The notes under the pieces are model-generated. The model worked only from the letters and a program-made list of their open reading frames with translations, had not been told where the DNA came from and searched no databases. The translations under genes and the position numbers were made by a program. This document shows positions 10,305-21,383 of a DNA stretch of 46,111 nt, one piece after another; the stretch's first letter is position 1, and every line of letters starts with the position of its first letter. Source of the stretch: an uncultured Chlorobiaceae bacterium. Lineage in GTDB: Bacteria > Bacteroidota > Chlorobiia > Chlorobiales > Chlorobiaceae. The stretch is from the NCBI GenBank assembly GCA_903869365.1, contig CAIPYV010000017.1:1-46111 (forward strand), in the 5' to 3' direction.

Positions 10305-11585
10305 ATGAAACCTGAGTTCTACATTGCAAGACGCTTTGCATTCAAGCAACGTTCAGCAACAAAGCCGACCTTCATTGTCATGGTCGCGGTTATTGGTATA
10401 GCCGTAGGAACTGCAGCTCTTATTCTGACACTTTCCATAGTCAAAGGATTTGCCGGCAGTGTGGAAAATAAGCTCATCAGCTTCAGCGCTCATTTACAGA
10501 TCCGTCATCCCGAAGACCAGCTCTTTCAGGAGCGCCGCTCAGACTTTGCAAAAGTCACGGGTCATAGCAACGTTACTGAAGCAACCCCGTTTCTGGAAAA
10601 GAGTTTTGTTCTCCGAAGCCGTAATGTCGCTCAAGGTGAAACCTGGCTGAGCAAGCCGATCATCATCAAAGGAATCAACAAGCAGCAGCAGCAGATTTTT
10701 ATGAAAAAATTCCTTAAGGCAGGGACTATAGATCCTTTTGGAGAGAAGCTGAAGAACGAAGGAATTGCACTTTATGCGGGACAAACTCTTGCTGAAAACC
10801 TTGGCCTCAGCGTTGGAAAAAAAGTTATGCTGGTGGGTCTTGGTAATAATGCATCAGGCGCAAAACTTATTGCACGTCATAACAACATTGTCGACCTCCT
10901 CTCTTCACTCGATCTTGAAGTCGGAGTCATACGCGGAATTTATGATACCGGCCTTCAGGAAGGATTTGATGATTATGTCGTCATTTCTGACCTGCATCAG
11001 TTGCAGCAGCGCTTTAACCCCACCTTGATCAGCGGCTATGATGCCAACGTGCACAACCTTGCCGATCTCCCGAAGACCTTGAAAGAGCTTACGGCATCTC
11101 TTGGATTTCCATTTTTTGGTTATACCGTTTTTGAGCGCTATGCAAATCTTTTTGAGTGGCTGAAACTGCAGAAAAACATCACGCCACTGCTGATCGTAAC
11201 CATTACTATCGTGGCTGTTTTTAACATTATCTCCACGCTTCTGGTGCTGATTATCGAAAAAACCCGTGAAATAGGAATGCTCAGTGCACTCGGCCTTGAA
11301 CCCGGAAAAATCAGTATGGTGTTTATGGCACAGGCCCTTCTTATCTCACTTTCCGGCATAGCAGCCGGCAATATCCTTGCTCTTTCACTCTCTCTTTTCG
11401 AATTGCGTTTTCACCTCATCACCCTTCCCGAAAAAAGCTACTTCATAAAATATGTACCGCTGCTTATCGATCCGCTCGATTACATCCTGGTCTCCATTGC
11501 CGTCACAGCCCTGACACTCATCTTTGCCTTTATCCCCGCCCGTATAGCCGCATCCCTGAAACCCGGAACCGCACTCAGCACCTGA
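10305..11585 (+). CDS. LolC/LolE-family lipoprotein-releasing permease (copy 1)
   Basis: 426 residues with the MacB/FtsX-type layout: one N-terminal membrane helix (about 22-45, VMVAVIGIAVGTAALILTLSIVKGF), a large periplasmic domain (about 50-270), and three C-terminal helices (PLLIVTITIVAVFNIISTLLVLIIEKTREIGMLSALG, QALLISLSGIAAGNILALSL, YILVSIAVTALTLIFAFIPA). EKTREIGMLSALGL is the coupling motif for the LolD ATPase. It would form part of a complex extracting lipoproteins from the inner membrane. No lolD is adjacent. A second family member lies at 20133-21383 in the same direction. Confidence 0.85.
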   Translation: MKPEFYIARRFAFKQRSATKPTFIVMVAVIGIAVGTAALILTLSIVKGFAGSVENKLISFSAHLQIRHPEDQLFQERRSDFAKVTGHSNVTEATPFLEKSFVLRSRNVAQGETWLSKPIIIKGINKQQQQIFMKKFLKAGTIDPFGEKLKNEGIALYAGQTLAENLGLSVGKKVMLVGLGNNASGAKLIARHNNIVDLLSSLDLEVGVIRGIYDTGLQEGFDDYVVISDLHQLQQRFNPTLISGYDANVHNLADLPKTLKELTASLGFPFFGYTVFERYANLFEWLKLQKNITPLLIVTITIVAVFNIISTLLVLIIEKTREIGMLSALGLEPGKISMVFMAQALLISLSGIAAGNILALSLSLFELRFHLITLPEKSYFIKYVPLLIDPLDYILVSIAVTALTLIFAFIPARIAASLKPGTALST

Positions 11586-12427: not shown

Positions 12428-13447
12428 TCAAGCTGCTTTGACCGCCTCACAAAACAGGTGACCGTATTTTCTTACCGTCCTGATATCCCGGAATCCGAGC
12501 GACTCAAGAATCTCCTTGTAGGTATTCTGGGGTTTGAAGCCGAGGACTGAAAAGGGCATTCCGGTACCAAGAATATAGTGGCTCAGGTAGTCGAAATTCG
12601 GGTTTTCCGGATCATCGATAATCATGTCAAGGATAAGCAGTCTGCCGCCAGCAGGCAGAGCTTCATAAGCTTTTCTGCACATCATGTCTGTCAACTGTTC
12701 ATTAGCCGAATACAGAATTCTGCAGAACATCACGGCATCCGCTTCTGGGTAAGCATCTCTGTAGATATCAACAGCTGCACCTCTGAGTCGGTCACCAACC
12801 CCTTTTTCAGCCGCGTTTTCATTGACCAGTGCAACAGCACCGGGAAGGTTAAGAATGGTTGAATCAAGGTGAGGGAATTTCTTGAGAAGAGCAGCAGAAA
12901 TGTCGCCAATTCCACCACCGACATCAACAAGGGTTTTGGCTGTTGACAGGTCAGCCTCTTCAAGCAGCAGCATGATTGCAAAATGGGCATTACTGCGGTG
13001 GATTTCCTCAAAGTACAGGTTGTCTTCACGAGTGATCGGCGGATAGGCCACTTCTCCCTTGAAATTCATGTTACCCCTCACAGCATCAGCTATCTTCAGG
13101 TAAAAGTTATCCGAAAGGTTCGCCACCGCTTTAGCCAGAGGAGTCATATAAAGATTGGGGTGCTCAGGGTTCGGCAGAAACATTCGTTTTGCAAAAGGGG
13201 TAAGGCACCATTTTTCACCCTCCCGTGCGGTAATTCCCATATGCCGCAACGCTTCAAGCAGCGTGGCGAGCCTTTGAGGAATTGCACCGACCGCAGTTGC
13301 CAGTGTGTCGGTCTCTTTTGCTTCATCACCAAGGTGTGCAAAAAGATCAAGTTCAAGAGCGGCTTTAAAACAACCGCACTCTACAACTCCTTTGAAAATA
13401 AGTTCATTGGCCCTGTAGTGTTGTTTCAGTAATTCATGATCATCCAT
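12428..13447 (-). CDS. bchU: Bacteriochlorophyllide C-20 methyltransferase BchU
   Basis: 339 residues from the ATG at 13447. The open frame extends upstream to a TTG at 13495, but MDDHELLKQHYRANELIFKG aligns with the known BchU N-terminus. It has the plant O-methyltransferase-like fold: an N-terminal helical dimerisation domain (about 1-150), the SAM-binding LVDVGGGIGDISAALLKKFP, and GGRLLILDMIIDDPENPNFDYLSHYILG near the pigment pocket. BchU puts a methyl group on C-20 of the bacteriochlorophyllide d ring, giving BChl c (and e) chlorosomes their red-shifted absorption. It is last in a minus-strand series after the radical SAM gene (71-base gap). Strong match to the known C. tepidum protein from memory. 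Confidence 0.93.
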   Translation of the reverse strand: MDDHELLKQHYRANELIFKGVVECGCFKAALELDLFAHLGDEAKETDTLATAVGAIPQRLATLLEALRHMGITAREGEKWCLTPFAKRMFLPNPEHPNLYMTPLAKAVANLSDNFYLKIADAVRGNMNFKGEVAYPPITREDNLYFEEIHRSNAHFAIMLLLEEADLSTAKTLVDVGGGIGDISAALLKKFPHLDSTILNLPGAVALVNENAAEKGVGDRLRGAAVDIYRDAYPEADAVMFCRILYSANEQLTDMMCRKAYEALPAGGRLLILDMIIDDPENPNFDYLSHYILGTGMPFSVLGFKPQNTYKEILESLGFRDIRTVRKYGHLFCEAVKAA

Positions 13448-13518: not shown

Positions 13519-14973
13519 TTACCTTGTAAAATTATTGAAAATCAGAATCCGGTTTTTTACAAATAATTCAACAGAATTACTCATTACACCCTCTTTGATG
13601 TTGTAATCTTTTTCAAAAGTTCCCAGTTGTTCCTGAAGATTTTTTCTGAAGGCTAAACTCGTGACAAGGTTGAGCAGTTTATAAGGGTTTCGTCTGACCC
13701 TGTTGACAATATTTTTCCATGAGTACGCCTTGTAATAGCTGGTCATGAATTTATGCTGGAATTTTACAGGATCGTATTTCTCTGAACGGATAACAAGATT
13801 CATGGCATTATATTTTTCCCAGTCCTCACTGGTAATCCATCCTTTACTTTTGTATTCCCAGTACATTGAGGTACCTGGATACGGGGTAATAATTTGAAAA
13901 ATCGGCATGAAAACACTGTTCTTTCCGACAAACTTTACCAGATTATCCATATCTTCGAAACTGTCAAGCGCCGGATTGACCAAAAAATTACCCTGAACAT
14001 TCAGACCGGCCTGACGACACTCCTCAATTAAACGGGAAAACTGGTCTGCAGAATTGACATGGCCTTTATTGTAGGCTTCAAGGGTACTTTGATTGATCGA
14101 CTCGAATCCGACAAGCACCATGATACACCCTGCCGCCACAAGTCTCTTGACCGTCTCCTTGTCTTCAAGAAAATTGATGCTAAAAAAAACGCTGAAGTTG
14201 ATATTACACTCCTTGATCAGGTCAAGAGACTCCCACAGTCGTTTTTTGCTGACACCGAGGTTCTCATCACAAAGCATGAACCATGGTTTTGATGACTTGC
14301 CACTTGCCTTAAAAAAAACCTTTTTAGCGGTTTCAATTTGCAGCTTCAGTTCTTCAGGTTTTTGCGATCGATAGAGTTTGCCGGTAAAATTCGGAGTAAC
14401 GCAAAATGAGCATTCGTAAGGACAGCCACGGGTTATATAGAGAGGAATGGATTTTGTTCCATCGACTTTTTCGCGCTTTGAGGCTTTGGCAATCCGCTCA
14501 TAATCAAGCGCTATAACCTCCTTTACAGGAGCAAATTCTTTAGAATTATAGAGTGGTTTTAAGCGGTTGCAGGCAACGTCTTCAAGAACGGTCAACCAAA
14601 GGTTCTCTGCTTCGCCGCAAACTATGCAGTCGGCATGGACTCTTGCCTCATCCAGATTGAATGAAACATGCAGGCCTCCAAGGATGACTTTTTTTCCTTT
14701 TTTTCGAAACTGGTCAGCAATTTCATAGCCTCTTGTTGCATCAATTGTTCGCGATGTTATGCCGACCAGATCATAATCCCCGTCATAATTGATGGCATCC
14801 CCAAAATGTTCATCGACAATTTCAATATGATGCTCTTTCGGAGTAAGGCTTACTAATACTCCTATTGCCATATTGAACAATGGCTTCTGGTTTGTTTTCG
14901 AGTCTTTTTTCCCTTTAGGGGCAATGAAGAGGATCTTGAGTGGCTTAATATGTCGATCTTCAGGGTTACTCAT
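13519..14973 (-). CDS. Radical SAM protein with B12-binding-like N-domain; BciD candidate (paralog 1)
   Basis: 484 residues. Residues 12-140 form a cobalamin-binding-type Rossmann domain ([19 protein letters not shown]...[12 protein letters not shown]), but the B12 histidine motif DxHxxG is not seen (DEHFGD instead). The radical SAM core starts at about 175 with [11 protein letters not shown]: Cys184, Cys188, Cys191 for the 4Fe-4S cluster. Then [14 protein letters not shown] and [11 protein letters not shown], as in the BchE/P-methylase group. Adjacent to bchU (71 bases) and to an ArsA-like gene (35 bases), it probably tailors a bacteriochlorophyll. Candidates are BciD (C-7 methyl to formyl, BChl e) or a BchQ/BchR-like methylase. 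I cannot choose from sequence alone. It is paralogous to 16646-18055. Confidence 0.8.
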
Positions 14974-15008: not shown

Positions 15009-16232
15009 TCAGTTGAGCACCTTGTCATAACTCTTTCGCTGGTGATTCTGGTCATGCTGGTTGAGATCAAAGGGAATGTGCAGCCATTTGTCCTTGAAAA
15101 ATGCTTCCCCCGGTTCCAGGCCCGTCAGACTTATCGGAAGCGTAATAATTTTACGCTGATTGGCGATATGAATATAAAGCTCATCACCGGTGACCCACAC
15201 ATCGATATCAACAGGATTTGCAAACATAAGTTTCAACTGCACTTCATAGACATTGCCATTGCGGATAAATTTGATCGGCGGTTCATCATACATCATATCT
15301 GACGGATCACTATCGCCATACATATCTTTAGCGAACAACTCAAGCGACTGGAGGCCGACAATCTCTTTTTCGTACATCCTGAGTTTCATCACAGGAAGGG
15401 GAGAGAAGCCCTCCTCTATTTCACCAAGGTATTTCTGCTGAATGTTTTTCCACTTTTCCAGATATCCACTGTTCTCTTTGGTATCAAGCAGTCTGTTGAC
15501 AAGGACCATATCGACCTTGAAGCCATAAAGATTCAGATAGGTCAATGCGCGCATGGTCTCCTTGATCGACATTTTTTCCGCATTCATGACCAAACGTACA
15601 GTGGATTTATTATTATCCGTCAGGATTTCCCGGATATCGACAAGCTCATCAAAAACCTGATCAACAGAATCAACAGCATCAGCCGGTGGAATATAAAAAG
15701 CGATTTTATCCGACATTTTAGACAGAGGCTTGCTCAGCGGCTTGATGATATATTTTGTAACATTTTTGACAGCCTTCATACCCCATGCCAAAGTGTCTGG
15801 AAGGGAGAGAAGCCGCAACGTTTCACCTGTCGGTGCTGTATCAAGCACCAGAACATCATAAAGACCTGACGCTTTATAGCGCTTTATCCGTAAAAGGGAA
15901 AACAGCTCTTCCATCCCGGGAAGGATAGTCATCTCGTCCGCCATAACCCCCGAAACACCTTGACCCATAAAAATTTTTGTATAGAACTTCTGGACAGACT
16001 GCCAATTCTCCTTAAGGTCTACGTATGGGTTGACCTCAATAGCATGAAGGTTTTCCTTGATTTTTGTCGGTTGGGCACCGAGCGGCAGGTTGAACGAGTC
16101 CGAAAGACTGTGAGCAGGATCGGTTGAGAGGACAAGGGTACGATAGCCAAGCTGCGACAATCGGACAGCAGTAGCAGCTGAAACACTGGTTTTACCAACC
16201 CCGCCTTTACCCGTAAAGGTTAAAATACGCAT
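15009..16232 (-). CDS. ArsA/Get3-like ATPase with C-terminal HSP20-like domain, no cysteines
   Basis: 407 residues. The deviant Walker A loop [15 protein letters not shown], switch [13 protein letters not shown] and switch [18 protein letters not shown] define the ArsA/Get3 family; about 330-400 form a beta-rich HSP20-like tail ([20 protein letters not shown]...KWLHIPFD) as found in some bacterial ArsA homologs. I find no cysteine at all, so it lacks both the metalloid-binding Cys of true ArsA and the zinc CxxC of Get3; arsenite pumping is unlikely. There is no arsB nearby. ArsA-like proteins of this kind also occur near chlorosome genes in green sulfur bacteria (memory), so a role in handling membrane or chlorosome proteins is a plausible guess. 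It lies 35 bases before the radical SAM gene. Confidence 0.88.
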
Positions 16233-16645: not shown

Positions 16646-18055
16646 TTAATAAAAATAACGTGGCGAAAGCTTGCTCGTAAAGCGGTTCATGGCATAGTTG
16701 GCAAGCCAGATCCAGTTCAGCGGCTTTCCCTTCATCCGCTGCATAATCGCACGGCCTTTATAGACCTCTCGTTGAAGCTTGACAAAATTTTCAAGCATTT
16801 TCTCACCGCTCATTTTATTCGGCTCAAACATGTAATGGTAGGTGTCATACTTGTCCCAGTCGAAATGGCGGATGCGAGGTTTCATTTCCTCGAAATAAGG
16901 TGTTCCGGGAAATGGGGTGACTAACGAAAAGACCGGAAACTCAATCCTGTTTTTCATGATAAAATCGTAGGTAAGCTGAAAACTTTCCTCCGTATCATTA
17001 TCAAAACCGAACATGAAATATCCCTGGATTGCAATACCGTTCTTATGGAGGTTGCTTACAACCGTTTCATAATTGCCAAGCCTGTTGGATCCTTTCTGGA
17101 CGCTTTTGATTGTCTCCGGATTGAGTGATTCAAAGCCGATGCTGAGCAGGTCGCATCCTGAACGACCGGCCAGTTCGGCAACCTCAGGTTTATCGAGAAA
17201 GTTCATGGAAATATTGGCATTCCAGTGCACGCCAAGCTTTGCCATCTCCTCAAGCAAAGTCATGAAATATTTTGGTCGAAAACTGATATTGTCGTCCATA
17301 AAAGAAAAATTGACCTTCTCCTTGCCGACTCTTTGCTGATGATAACGCATTTCATCAAGCACAAGATCCAGCTCTCGATAGCGGTAGCTTTTTCCGTAGA
17401 CCGTCGGCGTCGTGCAGAAGTTGCACCCAACCGGGCAGCCTTTCGTAGCAAGAAGAGGAATACGGGAACTGTATTTTTTTGCATTTTTTGAAGAAAGGGC
17501 ATAGCTGAAATCCGGATGGAGCATCGCACTCATCGGCTTAAGCTCTTTTGCCCTGTAAACGCTCCGCATCTTTCCTTTCAGGATATCAGTGGCCAGCTCT
17601 GTCCATATCGACTCAATTTCACCATAAACCACGCTCGTGCAGTGTCCAGAGGCCTCTTCATGAAGCATGGTGGGATGAACGCCTCCAAGGATCACTGTTT
17701 TTCCCTGAGCAAGAGCGGCATCACCGATCCGGTATGCCTTGGACGCATTGAGTGTTCGGGAAGTGATCGCTACAATATCAAAGCCGGAAAAATCTTCCGG
17801 AACCTTGTCACCAAGTCGTTCATCAATGAAGGTGATATCGAACAGCTTTCCTGCAAGGGAAGCAACCATGATAAGATTTAAAGGCATACTGACCGTTCCG
17901 GAATCTACCATCATGCTGGTGTTGCTGACCGGCTGAATTAACAGCCATTTCTTGCGTGATTTTTGCTTTGCGGCAAGCTGATGAAGAAGTTCCTCAGATA
18001 AATTTGAGGCCGGATCAAGCGGTAAAAAGAGAGCGTCTGATGGTAAGGTCTGCAT
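16646..18055 (-). CDS. Radical SAM protein with B12-binding-like N-domain; BciD candidate (paralog 2)
   Basis: 469 residues. After an N-terminal stretch (1-45), a Rossmann domain (about 55-165; VAITSRTLNASKAYRIGD...KTVILGGVHPTM) again without DxHxxG, then the radical SAM core from about 200: KGCPVGCNFC with Cys207, Cys211, Cys214, then FMDDNISFRPKYF, LLSIGFESLNPETI and FPVFSLVTPFPGTPYFEEM. It shares blocks with the protein at 13519-14973 (ITSRT..A...Y.I.D, K.VILGG.H), so the two are paralogs. Such enzymes include BchE, BchQ, BchR and BciD of chlorophyll synthesis. It lies 66 bases after the AraC gene on the same strand. Which reaction it performs is not settled; a C-7, C-8 or C-12 side-chain change is plausible. 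Confidence 0.8.
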   Translation of the reverse strand: MQTLPSDALFLPLDPASNLSEELLHQLAAKQKSRKKWLLIQPVSNTSMMVDSGTVSMPLNLIMVASLAGKLFDITFIDERLGDKVPEDFSGFDIVAITSRTLNASKAYRIGDAALAQGKTVILGGVHPTMLHEEASGHCTSVVYGEIESIWTELATDILKGKMRSVYRAKELKPMSAMLHPDFSYALSSKNAKKYSSRIPLLATKGCPVGCNFCTTPTVYGKSYRYRELDLVLDEMRYHQQRVGKEKVNFSFMDDNISFRPKYFMTLLEEMAKLGVHWNANISMNFLDKPEVAELAGRSGCDLLSIGFESLNPETIKSVQKGSNRLGNYETVVSNLHKNGIAIQGYFMFGFDNDTEESFQLTYDFIMKNRIEFPVFSLVTPFPGTPYFEEMKPRIRHFDWDKYDTYHYMFEPNKMSGEKMLENFVKLQREVYKGRAIMQRMKGKPLNWIWLANYAMNRFTSKLSPRYFY

Positions 18056-19159: not shown

Positions 19160-19464
19160 ACGTAATCGAGGTTAAAGCAAATTGATTGTTTACGTTAAGA
19201 AATATAATCATTTAACTTCAAGAAACATGGATAATTACTTTTCGAAAGATAAACCGGCGAACTCCGGAGAAGGGTAGTGCAATATCATGGTAATTCGGTT
19301 GGGTAACAGAAGCACGGATCCAGCTTGACGGCAGAAGTGCATGCATTCCGAAATTTATTGAAAGTAATTGTTTAAAAATATTTTAACTTATGGCAAACCA
19401 AAAAAAGTATGGGATAGTTTGACCCATATTGCTCTTTAACTCCAACAATAAAATAATAATTCTC
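19160..19464. promoter_or_regulatory. Divergent control region between the AraC gene and the csm gene
   Basis: A 305-base gene-free region between divergent starts, with an AT-rich stretch near 19365-19390 and the inverted repeat described separately. It must hold promoters for both directions. I could not fix -10/-35 elements with confidence, though TTGACC at 19419 could be part of a plus-strand promoter. Confidence 0.45.
19408..19428. promoter_or_regulatory. Inverted repeat TATGGG-N9-CCCATA, candidate operator
   Basis: TATGGG (19408-19413) and CCCATA (19423-19428) are perfect inverted arms around nine bases, 37 bases before the csm ATG. Size and place suit an operator or attenuating hairpin; short perfect arms of six can occur by chance. 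Confidence 0.4.
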
Positions 19465-19704
19465 ATGTCAAACGTAACAAACAACGAGTTTTCCGTTGCT
19501 CTCAACAATTATTTCCAGACGCTTGGAACGCTTACCCAGCAATTGGTTGAATTGGTGAATGTTGTCATTAAGACAGCAGGCTCAATTACAGCGTCAATTA
19601 TTGAACCGATCTCCAAAGCAGCTACCGGTCTTGCTGGGAATGCTTCAACCACTGTTACCAAGGTATATCAAGGCGCCGCTGCAGCTGTTGCTCCTAAAAA
19701 GTAA
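19465..19704 (+). CDS. CsmB/CsmF-family chlorosome envelope protein
   Basis: 79 residues from the ATG at 19465 (an upstream in-frame start at 19429 would add 12 unlikely residues). The sequence MSNVTNNEFSVALNNYFQTL, a long hydrophobic helical middle (LVELVNVVIKTAGSITASIIEP) and the ending AAAAVAPKK match the small amphipathic CsmB/CsmF proteins that coat the chlorosome. They sit in the lipid monolayer envelope and help organise bacteriochlorophyll aggregates. I cannot say which of CsmB or CsmF from memory alone. A strong intrinsic terminator follows at 19720, so it is monocistronic, as befits an abundant structural protein. Divergent from the AraC regulator. Confidence 0.8.
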   Translation: MSNVTNNEFSVALNNYFQTLGTLTQQLVELVNVVIKTAGSITASIIEPISKAATGLAGNASTTVTKVYQGAAAAVAPKK

Positions 19705-20132: not shown

Positions 20133-21383
20133 ATGAAAACAGGGTTATGGATTGCTCGCCGCTTTAGCTTTGCTCGGAAACGCTTCAGGGTCATCAATGT
20201 CATTTCGGCTATAAGTCTTGCCGGAATCATTATCGGTGTCAGCACTCTTCTTGTCGTTATGAGCGTGTTGAACGGATTTCAAAAACTTGCCCGCGATCTC
20301 TTTATCACCATTGACAGCCCCGCTCAGATTGTTCCCGTAAACGGCCGAACCTTGACAGTGTCCGACACTCTTCTGCAGGCGATAAAAGCACTCGAAGGTG
20401 TCGGAGCCGTTGAACCCTATGCCGAAGGTGAGGCTATTATGGGCAGCGGTGAAAAAAGCGAACTGGTGGTTGTAAAAGGACTCAGCGAAGCAGCTCATCG
20501 TCGCCTGATCCTGCAGACCCATGCAACTCACCCCTATTTCACCGGCGAAACCATTGCGGCAGGGGAGATTTTAGCCTACAGAACCAATCTCCATACATTC
20601 AGACAGGTTAAAATTTTCAGTCCCGAACTGATCTCCTTAGGCCTCGAATCTCTCTCGCAACCCTATCTCATACCGATGCTCGGTATTCCGGAAACCACGG
20701 TCTCATCCATATTTTCACTGCAGAAAATATTTGACGATCGCTACGTACTCACCTCCGACTCGTTTGCCCATAAAATCCTGCTGCTTGGCAGGGGAGAGTA
20801 TTCAGGGATTGACATCCGCCAGAAGGAAGGGTACTCTCGTGACGACTTCACCATCAGTCTCAGGAAATGGCTGGCTGCAAGCCCCATGAAAGCCTCCTGG
20901 AAAATTCGCACGCTCGAAGAAAAATACACCAACATCTTCACGGTGATGCAGCTTGAAAAATGGGTCAGCTTCAGTGTCCTGATGCTCATTATCCTTGTCG
21001 CAGCCCTCAGTCTCACAGGTGCACTTGCCATGACTGCCATCGACAAACAACGCGAACTCTTCTATCTGCGCTGCCTGGGTCTCGAAAAGCCTCAGTTCAT
21101 GTCCATATTTATCATACAGGGCGGCATGACTGGACTCGCGGGAACCGCTGCAGGAATAAGTATCGCCGGGACTATCTGCAAACTTCAGGAACTCTATGGC
21201 ATAGTGCAGCTCCCTTCAAAAAGCGCCTTCATCATTTCAGCCTATCCAGTCAGCATGCACCTTGATGATTTTATCATCGTAGCAATAACAGGAGTCATGC
21301 TCTGTCTCGCAGTAAGCCTCTACCCGGCAAGAAAAGCCGCCCTGATAGCCACCGCCAACTCCCTCGACCAAAAAACCAACTAA
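20133..21383 (+). CDS. LolC/LolE-family lipoprotein-releasing permease (copy 2)
   Basis: 416 residues with the same layout as 10305-11585: N-terminal helix (about 22-45, [29 protein letters not shown]), periplasmic domain, then three C-terminal helices and the coupling motif [19 protein letters not shown]. Starts in the same style ([25 protein letters not shown]). Together the two copies could form a LolCE-type heterodimer, but they are separated by about 8.5 kb. No lolD ATPase is present in the window. Confidence 0.85.

Follow-up and report, generated by a model that had tools for sequence, protein, structure and literature searches.

A gene coding for a Get3d-type ATPase precedes the chlorosome envelope/baseplate genes csmC and csmA, on one strand, in all 23 genomes tested from the order of green sulfur bacteria to which the analysed DNA belongs (four families, nine genera). 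The window, the whole stretch of 46,111 nucleotides under study, carries a paralogue of this csm-linked Get3d in a get3d-radical SAM-bchU unit that occurs in part of the Chlorobiaceae. The position of the sister copy beside the chlorosome shell genes suggests that the window protein helps to build the shell and does not pump arsenic. Get3d would be an ATP-driven chaperone or targeting factor for small hydrophobic proteins of the chlorosome envelope, and the window copy would be an additional form of it associated with the genes of bacteriochlorophyll methylation; a probability of about one half is given to this reading.

The protein family is known. Judging from the open-licence literature searched, we would regard as new the conserved csm block with its PH-like ORF, together with the bchU-linked offshoot. 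No report of a csm-Get3d linkage was found in that literature, and no assembly factor for chlorosome envelope proteins was found there either.

Architecture and family of the window protein

The window gene codes for an ArsA/Get3 ATPase domain (PF02374, residues 1-305, E 1.5e-115) extended by an alpha-crystallin-like tail. Its features are listed below.

15009-16232, minus strand: get3d-type gene, ArsA/Get3 ATPase with alpha-crystallin-like tail, 407 amino acids, no cysteine
16188-16211, minus strand: P-loop GKGGVGKT, a deviant Walker A motif, residues 8-15, intact
16098-16127, minus strand: switch I, residues 36-45, around D38, intact
15825-15842, minus strand: switch II DTAPTG, residues 131-136, intact
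15459-15470, minus strand: site of the Get3 zinc CXXC, S255-G-Y-L258 in the alignment to 3zq6 (CEFC in 3zq6)
15330-15368, minus strand: A-loop-like segment, aligned without gaps to 3zq6
15069-15254, minus strand: ArsA_HSP20 or alpha-crystallin-like domain PF17886, residues 327-388, E 1.5e-18

D38 is taken here to be the catalytic Asp of Get3 and the segment 15330-15368 presumably holds the A-loop position. K9, K14 and D38 are invariant among the 30 aligned homologues, in which the P-loop, the switch I Asp and much of switch II are unchanged. Judged from its sequence, the window protein is a green sulfur form of Get3d that keeps the Walker A lysine and the switch I Asp. The ORF, the Pfam matches and the motifs agree with the initial annotation, which had described intact ATPase motifs, no cysteine in 407 residues and an HSP20-like tail. 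Promoter and terminator scans gave nothing informative.

An AlphaFold2 monomer model built from the 30 aligned homologues (mean pLDDT 82.3) has archaeal TRC40 3zq6 as its best structural match (Z 32.7 over 287 residues). It also matches NosGet3d 8egk (Z 31.0, 349 residues, aligned range 1-391) and AtGet3d 8elf (Z 26.7, 341 residues). Among the 50 matches listed, only 8egk, 3igf (NosGet3d) and 8elf (AtGet3d) extend beyond residue 358. The client-binding helices (residues 141-190) are among the weakest parts of the monomer model, with block means of 58-73.

The window protein has the Get3d architecture, a known protein type. According to the text available of Barlow 2023 (PMC10248533), Get3d occurs in cyanobacteria, plants and green sulfur bacteria and lacks the CXXC motif; the green sulfur proteins, which retain switch I and the A-loop, are placed as nearest relatives, and Chlorobium chlorochromatii has five copies. 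The characterised proteins AtGet3d and NosGet3d hydrolyse ATP and can hold a tail-anchored protein, a hydrophobic chamber being the probable site, and the clients and pathway of Get3d are left open there; the word chlorosome is absent from the main text of that paper (PMC10248533). The window protein resembles NosGet3d (All4481) and AtGet3d (At1g26090) in the ATPase domain with a C-terminal alpha-crystallin domain, the absence of CXXC and the fold. It differs from them in having switch I and an A-loop-like segment, as published for the green sulfur forms, in being nearer in sequence to archaeal TRC40 (182 bits for 3zq6, the nearest solved protein by sequence, against 85 for NosGet3d), and in the linkage of its close homologues to csmC-csmA and of the window copy to bchU.

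Of the NCBIfam cut-offs, that of TIGR00345 GET3_arsA_TRC40 is passed (278 bits vs 135), whereas those of the NosGet3d-type equivalog NosAFP (139 vs 325) and of the ArsA equivalog (117 vs 650) are missed. The window protein is like Get3/TRC40 (archaeal 3zq6, fungal Get3) in its TIGR00345 score, nucleotide motifs and fold, but has no zinc CXXC and carries the additional HSP20-like tail. With ArsA of E. coli and the ArsA copy on contig C125 of its own genome it shares the ATPase superfamily PF02374; unlike them it has one ATPase domain, without tandem domains, cysteines or ars neighbours. Another likeness is to the ArsA homologues that Castillo and Saier (2010) grouped as cluster 8, which are single-domain proteins of 396 amino acids on average, come from Chlorobi, Chloroflexi, Cyanobacteria and others, and include most green sulfur proteins of that study (PMC2963123). 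Size and organisms would place the window protein in this cluster. For clusters 8-13 (four of six in its database) the 2010 study, in its available text, took no functional clue from genome context (PMC2963123); here the context is csmC-csmA.

Cysteine content had weighed in the initial annotation, which argued from the absent residues that neither a metalloid site nor a zinc clasp can form. This inference is weak since CXXC is missing throughout the Get3d family and also from AtGet3a, a Get3 that does target tail-anchored proteins (PMC10248533, available text). No CXXC was found in any of 111 homologue rows, which comprise 75 csm-linked, 31 bchU-linked (window included) and five others, two of them deeper paralogues, and in which some genes were fetched twice. 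Cysteine is absent from 31/31 bchU-linked and 59/75 csm-linked close homologues. As a key feature it was rejected because most close homologues share it: by sequence, having no cysteine is an ordinary trait of this subgroup and is not peculiar to the window copy. Zero cysteines are expected in ~2% of 407-residue proteins at 0.94% Cys, and 5 of 82 crude ORFs of at least 300 amino acids in the window and seven other regions of the same genome have none. The remaining six Get3d proteins encoded in this genome contain 1-4 cysteines each.

Searches with PF02374 and PF17886 gave seven ATPase-HSP20 genes in the window's genome: the window copy, two on C62, two on C114 and one each on C76 and C30. The C30 copy (L101:8500-9801) has 433 amino acids, a length similar to that of published cluster 11, to which it may belong (PMC2963123). 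An eighth homologue, on C69, is tail-less and lies in a gas-vesicle cluster with GvpL/GvpF and Gas_vesicle Pfam matches. There (L102:8784-10233) the Get3-like ATPase has a separate HSP20 gene next to it, the two modules being unfused beside the genes of another hydrophobic-shell organelle; arsA homologues and hsp20 in gas-vesicle clusters were already published (PMC2963123).

Get3d genes around csmC and csmA

Contig C62 carries a close paralogue that shares 90% identity with the window protein; after it come csmC (PF11098, 7.2e-63), csmA (PF02043, 1.2e-35), a 544-codon ORF and a second Get3d gene. The upstream gene, Get3d-I, codes for a protein 61-90% identical to the window protein across the genomes and lies 668-1307 bp upstream of csmA, on the same strand, in 23/23. 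CsmA is found in all 23 and CsmC once in each. Get3d-II follows 1338-2621 bp downstream of csmA in 21/23; the exceptions are G096, cut by a contig end, and G088, whose contig runs for ~1 kb after the ORF with no match there. The Get3d-csmC-csmA order extends to the eight genomes in which BchU does not reach its cut-off. Linkage is not the same as interaction, and, being related by descent, the genomes do not stand for 23 independent events.

The order comprises 98 genomes, and those tested are 13/86 of the window's own family (mostly in few contigs) and 10/12 of the other families, from which G093 (81% complete, no CsmA match) and G095 (13% contamination) were left out. CsmA is present in 96 of the 98, being missing in G083 (88% complete) and G093. 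Nearest flanking ORFs, crudely picked, show none matching between families upstream (n=13) and one kind matching between families downstream (n=11), in f1 and f2 only. In families where Get3d-I shares only 61-70% identity with the window protein, the csm block has persisted longer than the genes around it.

A neighbour-blind search for close homologues kept 80 loci of 112 confirmed from the genome scan; 51 have csmC/csmA nearby, 26 rSAM1/BchU and three neither. The labels csm and bchU were assigned from these nearby genes, so that counts within a label describe an arrangement and are not an independent test. The 23 genomes hold 136 Get3-type matches, 5-8 each, of which 44 flank csmC-csmA and 92 do not. 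In 5/23 genomes a different class of Get3d is found at a distance of 3.7-3.8 kb from a CsmA paralogue, the two being on opposite strands; other ORFs intervene at L156, and this linkage is too loose for use. A contig binned as Candidatus Latescibacterota (L063) carries get3d-csmC-csmA with Chlorobium-like identities of 87, 77 and 93%; this assignment is probably a binning error.

The gene between csmA and Get3d-II is unnamed.

L097:11868-13496, contig C62: ORF544, 544 amino acids, between csmA and get3d-II

Homologues of ORF544 are found in L144-L155, in all four families, and the ORF was recovered in 11 of the 12 regions read, with ends that are not all complete; in L149 it was not recovered and may have been missed by crude ORF picking. 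The model of its amino terminus is PH-like (pLDDT 83.6, Z up to 10.8 against PH-domain proteins, Foldseek best 7.7e-4), and its carboxyl end features RRKKIKIK-type basic motifs. The predicted fold hints at a lipid- or protein-binding partner, for which it would be suited. Its best Pfam match, to the RACo middle region (0.00078), is seen in 2/11 members, with the others weaker, and is not believed.

A Get3d gene beside csmA across an order merges the question of the Get3d clients with that of envelope assembly. The csmA gene is essential, while csmC is dispensable yet affects chlorosome properties, as stated in the text available of PMC12214013. Proteins of the chlorosome envelope are small and have a lipid monolayer to reach. 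In four Csm or Csm-like proteins the hydrophobic stretches are only mild, with 19-residue Kyte-Doolittle maxima of 1.19-1.47, and a tail-anchor-like client mode is for this reason not obvious.

The bchU-linked copy

Two genes for LolC/E-type permeases (10305-11585 and 20133-21383), both plus-strand and both below NCBIfam cut-off, bracket the pigment gene block of the window. Around get3d this block holds the following genes.

12428-13447, minus strand: bchU, C-20 methyltransferase, TIGR02716 477.6 bits against a cut-off of 276.1
13519-14973, minus strand: rSAM1, radical SAM gene with a B12-binding-like part, 35 bp after get3d
16646-18055, minus strand: rSAM2, second radical SAM gene, 413 bp upstream of get3d
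19429-19704, plus strand: CsmB-like small ORF, similar to an ORF beside a C114 Get3d

The start of bchU is listed at TTG 13495, the ATG at 13447 seeming likelier. Both radical SAM proteins match PF04055 over cut-off and B12-binding PF02310 below it (E 8.2e-6 and 3.3e-5), and they fall under every listed NCBIfam cut-off. Beyond rSAM2, upstream of get3d, lies an AraC-type regulator gene. The ORF 19429-19704, which we take to be CsmB-like, has no Pfam or NCBIfam match.

BchU is over cut-off in 15 of the 23 genomes, and in five of these (G000, G014, G028, G035, G036) a Get3d gene lies 106-1693 bp from bchU on the same strand. The link to csm genes holds in 23/23 genomes and that to bchU is partial, in 5/15. 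As primary partner bchU was rejected, since the csm order persists in eight genomes where BchU does not reach its cut-off. Among 27 bchU-type rows (window included), a label given for having rSAM1 or BchU nearby, rSAM1 is 39-232 bp downstream of get3d in 26 and bchU follows directly in one. The bchU gene is present in 22 of them and four others stop at contig ends; L023 has a bchU-type get3d and a radical SAM gene with no bchU within 8 kb downstream, possibly a natural bchU loss in a BChl d producer. The window copy is accordingly seen as a Get3d of the csm type that reached the bchU locus by duplication or relocation.

A quick tree of close homologues, from which the deeper paralogues L132 and L133 had been dropped beforehand, requires three changes of the bchU label. 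The bchU-linked copies may go back to one origin, and loss, gene conversion or repeated transposition may have shaped their distribution. A radical SAM gene is found on each side of the bchU-linked get3d in L158 (G036), L079, L080, L087 and L095. In one genome two window-type get3d copies lie within ~4 kb of each other (G079:C115:134046-138123).

Candidate roles and distribution

The window protein would act as a P-loop ATPase in homodimeric form, with a helical client-binding half and the C-terminal alpha-crystallin-like domain. In its ATP-bound state Get3d may shield small hydrophobic or amphipathic proteins of the chlorosome envelope after translation and hand them to the growing monolayer envelope or to a membrane attachment site, ATP hydrolysis then resetting it. 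Spaced by 35 bp and at most 71 bp, the window get3d, rSAM1 and bchU are probably co-transcribed, and this Get3d could be used when the BChl c pathway and the chlorosome are remodelled. Client, destination, dimer, co-transcription and the division of labour between the paralogues are what we infer. The role in chlorosome or envelope-protein assembly proposed in the initial annotation gains from the Get3d gene found before csmC-csmA in 23/23 genomes, the role itself being still a deduction. A broader version, held tentatively and at less than even odds, is a dedicated GET-like chlorosome system in which the two Get3d around csmC-csmA and PH-like ORF544, as lipid-binding receptor, form the assembly machinery of a lipid-monolayer organelle, with the window Get3d as its BChl c-tied version. 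The expansion of "ArsA" proteins in these bacteria would in that case represent a group of factors that target proteins to an organelle.

The envelope reading has to be weighed against a more general one, doubtful though still to be taken seriously, in which Get3d is a chaperone of membrane or tail-anchored proteins for the cytoplasmic membrane and reaction-centre parts and the csm and bchU neighbours reflect shared expression of photosynthesis genes. Plants and cyanobacteria are not known to have chlorosomes, which counts in its favour. The plant and cyanobacterial Get3d bind a tail-anchored protein (PMC10248533, available text), and 44 of the 136 Get3-type matches flank csmC-csmA in genomes with 5-8 each. 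Against it, a pair of Get3d genes encloses csmC and csmA in four families whose nearest flanking genes are mostly different, and bchU, the other photosynthesis gene examined, is close in only 5/15. The bchU and radical SAM neighbours would be explained, though quite improbably, if the protein were a carrier that took up a lipid, a carotenoid or a bacteriochlorophyll(ide) in its hydrophobic chamber and ferried it to the envelope or the baseplate. The window copy does sit with a BChl-modifying gene, and AtGet3d shows density consistent with a phospholipid; its authors consider that this may be nonspecific carry-over through purification (PMC10248533, available text), and csmC-csmA form the wider link, which is seen likewise in the eight genomes where BchU does not reach its cut-off.

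It is very unlikely that the protein is an ATP-independent or stress holdase of the small-heat-shock type, as its PF17886 tail could suggest. The P-loop, the switch I Asp and much of switch II are invariant in the 30 homologues, the csm linkage is stable, and in characterised Get3d the tail is dispensable for client binding and has no oligomerisation features (PMC10248533, available text). The least credible role is that of an arsenite-efflux ATPase, ArsA. A 2024 review, in its available text, lists six C. tepidum homologues of ArsA as serving to export arsenite, with reference to the genome paper of 2002 (PMC11269200); the envelope reading, if true, corrects this view of green sulfur Get3d genes as arsenite pumps. 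Arsenic resistance was rejected for the window protein on its single domain, the lack of cysteine, the missed ArsA cut-off and the absence of ars neighbours in the sequences searched. The window's genome has a separate ArsA on C125, of 612 amino acids with two ATPase halves and seven cysteines, flanked by genes for SBF-family (Acr3-like), LMWPc (ArsC-like) and HTH_20 (ArsR-like) proteins. These three proteins match in 1 of 103 searched sequences, which is the tandem-ArsA region itself, and ArsB (PF02040) is found in 0/23 genomes, with a control positive in 6/14. No arsenic genes were found near the window copy or its relatives in these 103 sequences and 23 genomes; such linkage in relatives is what the initial annotation had named as evidence against its reading.

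The window protein (P0001) has a match in all 98 class genomes examined. A phylum sample of 392 genomes gave matches in 77 class members and in 25 of 315 others; CsmA has no match in these 25, with a model positive in 96/98 class members. PF17886 is found in 7 of 11 scanned genomes outside the class, in open frames of 393-427 amino acids; L135 and L137-L141, from the phylum outside the class, are Get3d-like with an HSP20 tail in genomes without a CsmA match. The presence of Get3d-type proteins outside the chlorosome-bearing class speaks against linking the family as a whole to photosynthesis. A plasmid search with P0001 gave 39 records, all below 60% identity, one with the C30 copy gave five and one with CsmA gave none.

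Chloroherpeton, C. tepidum, Chloroflexus aurantiacus and Ca. Chloracidobacterium thermophilum all form chlorosomes. They account for the four members of cluster 11, which in the available text has no others (PMC2963123). Record numbers in the table of that study place two Chloroflexus homologues 4 apart, and pairs of csm-flanking size 6 apart in C. tepidum and 5 apart in Chloroherpeton (PMC2963123). This numbering is a lead that the Chloroflexus homologues are possibly paired like the csm-flanking Get3d. Chloroflexus bchU, bchK, csmM and csmN are Caur_0137-0140 (PMC3150298, available text).

A Nif11-like protein of 97 residues (L099:11239-11532; Pfam below cut-off) matches the C-terminal part of CsmA over residues 69-96, corresponding to PF02043 positions 53-80. 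This tail might be a shared chlorosome targeting or processing signal.
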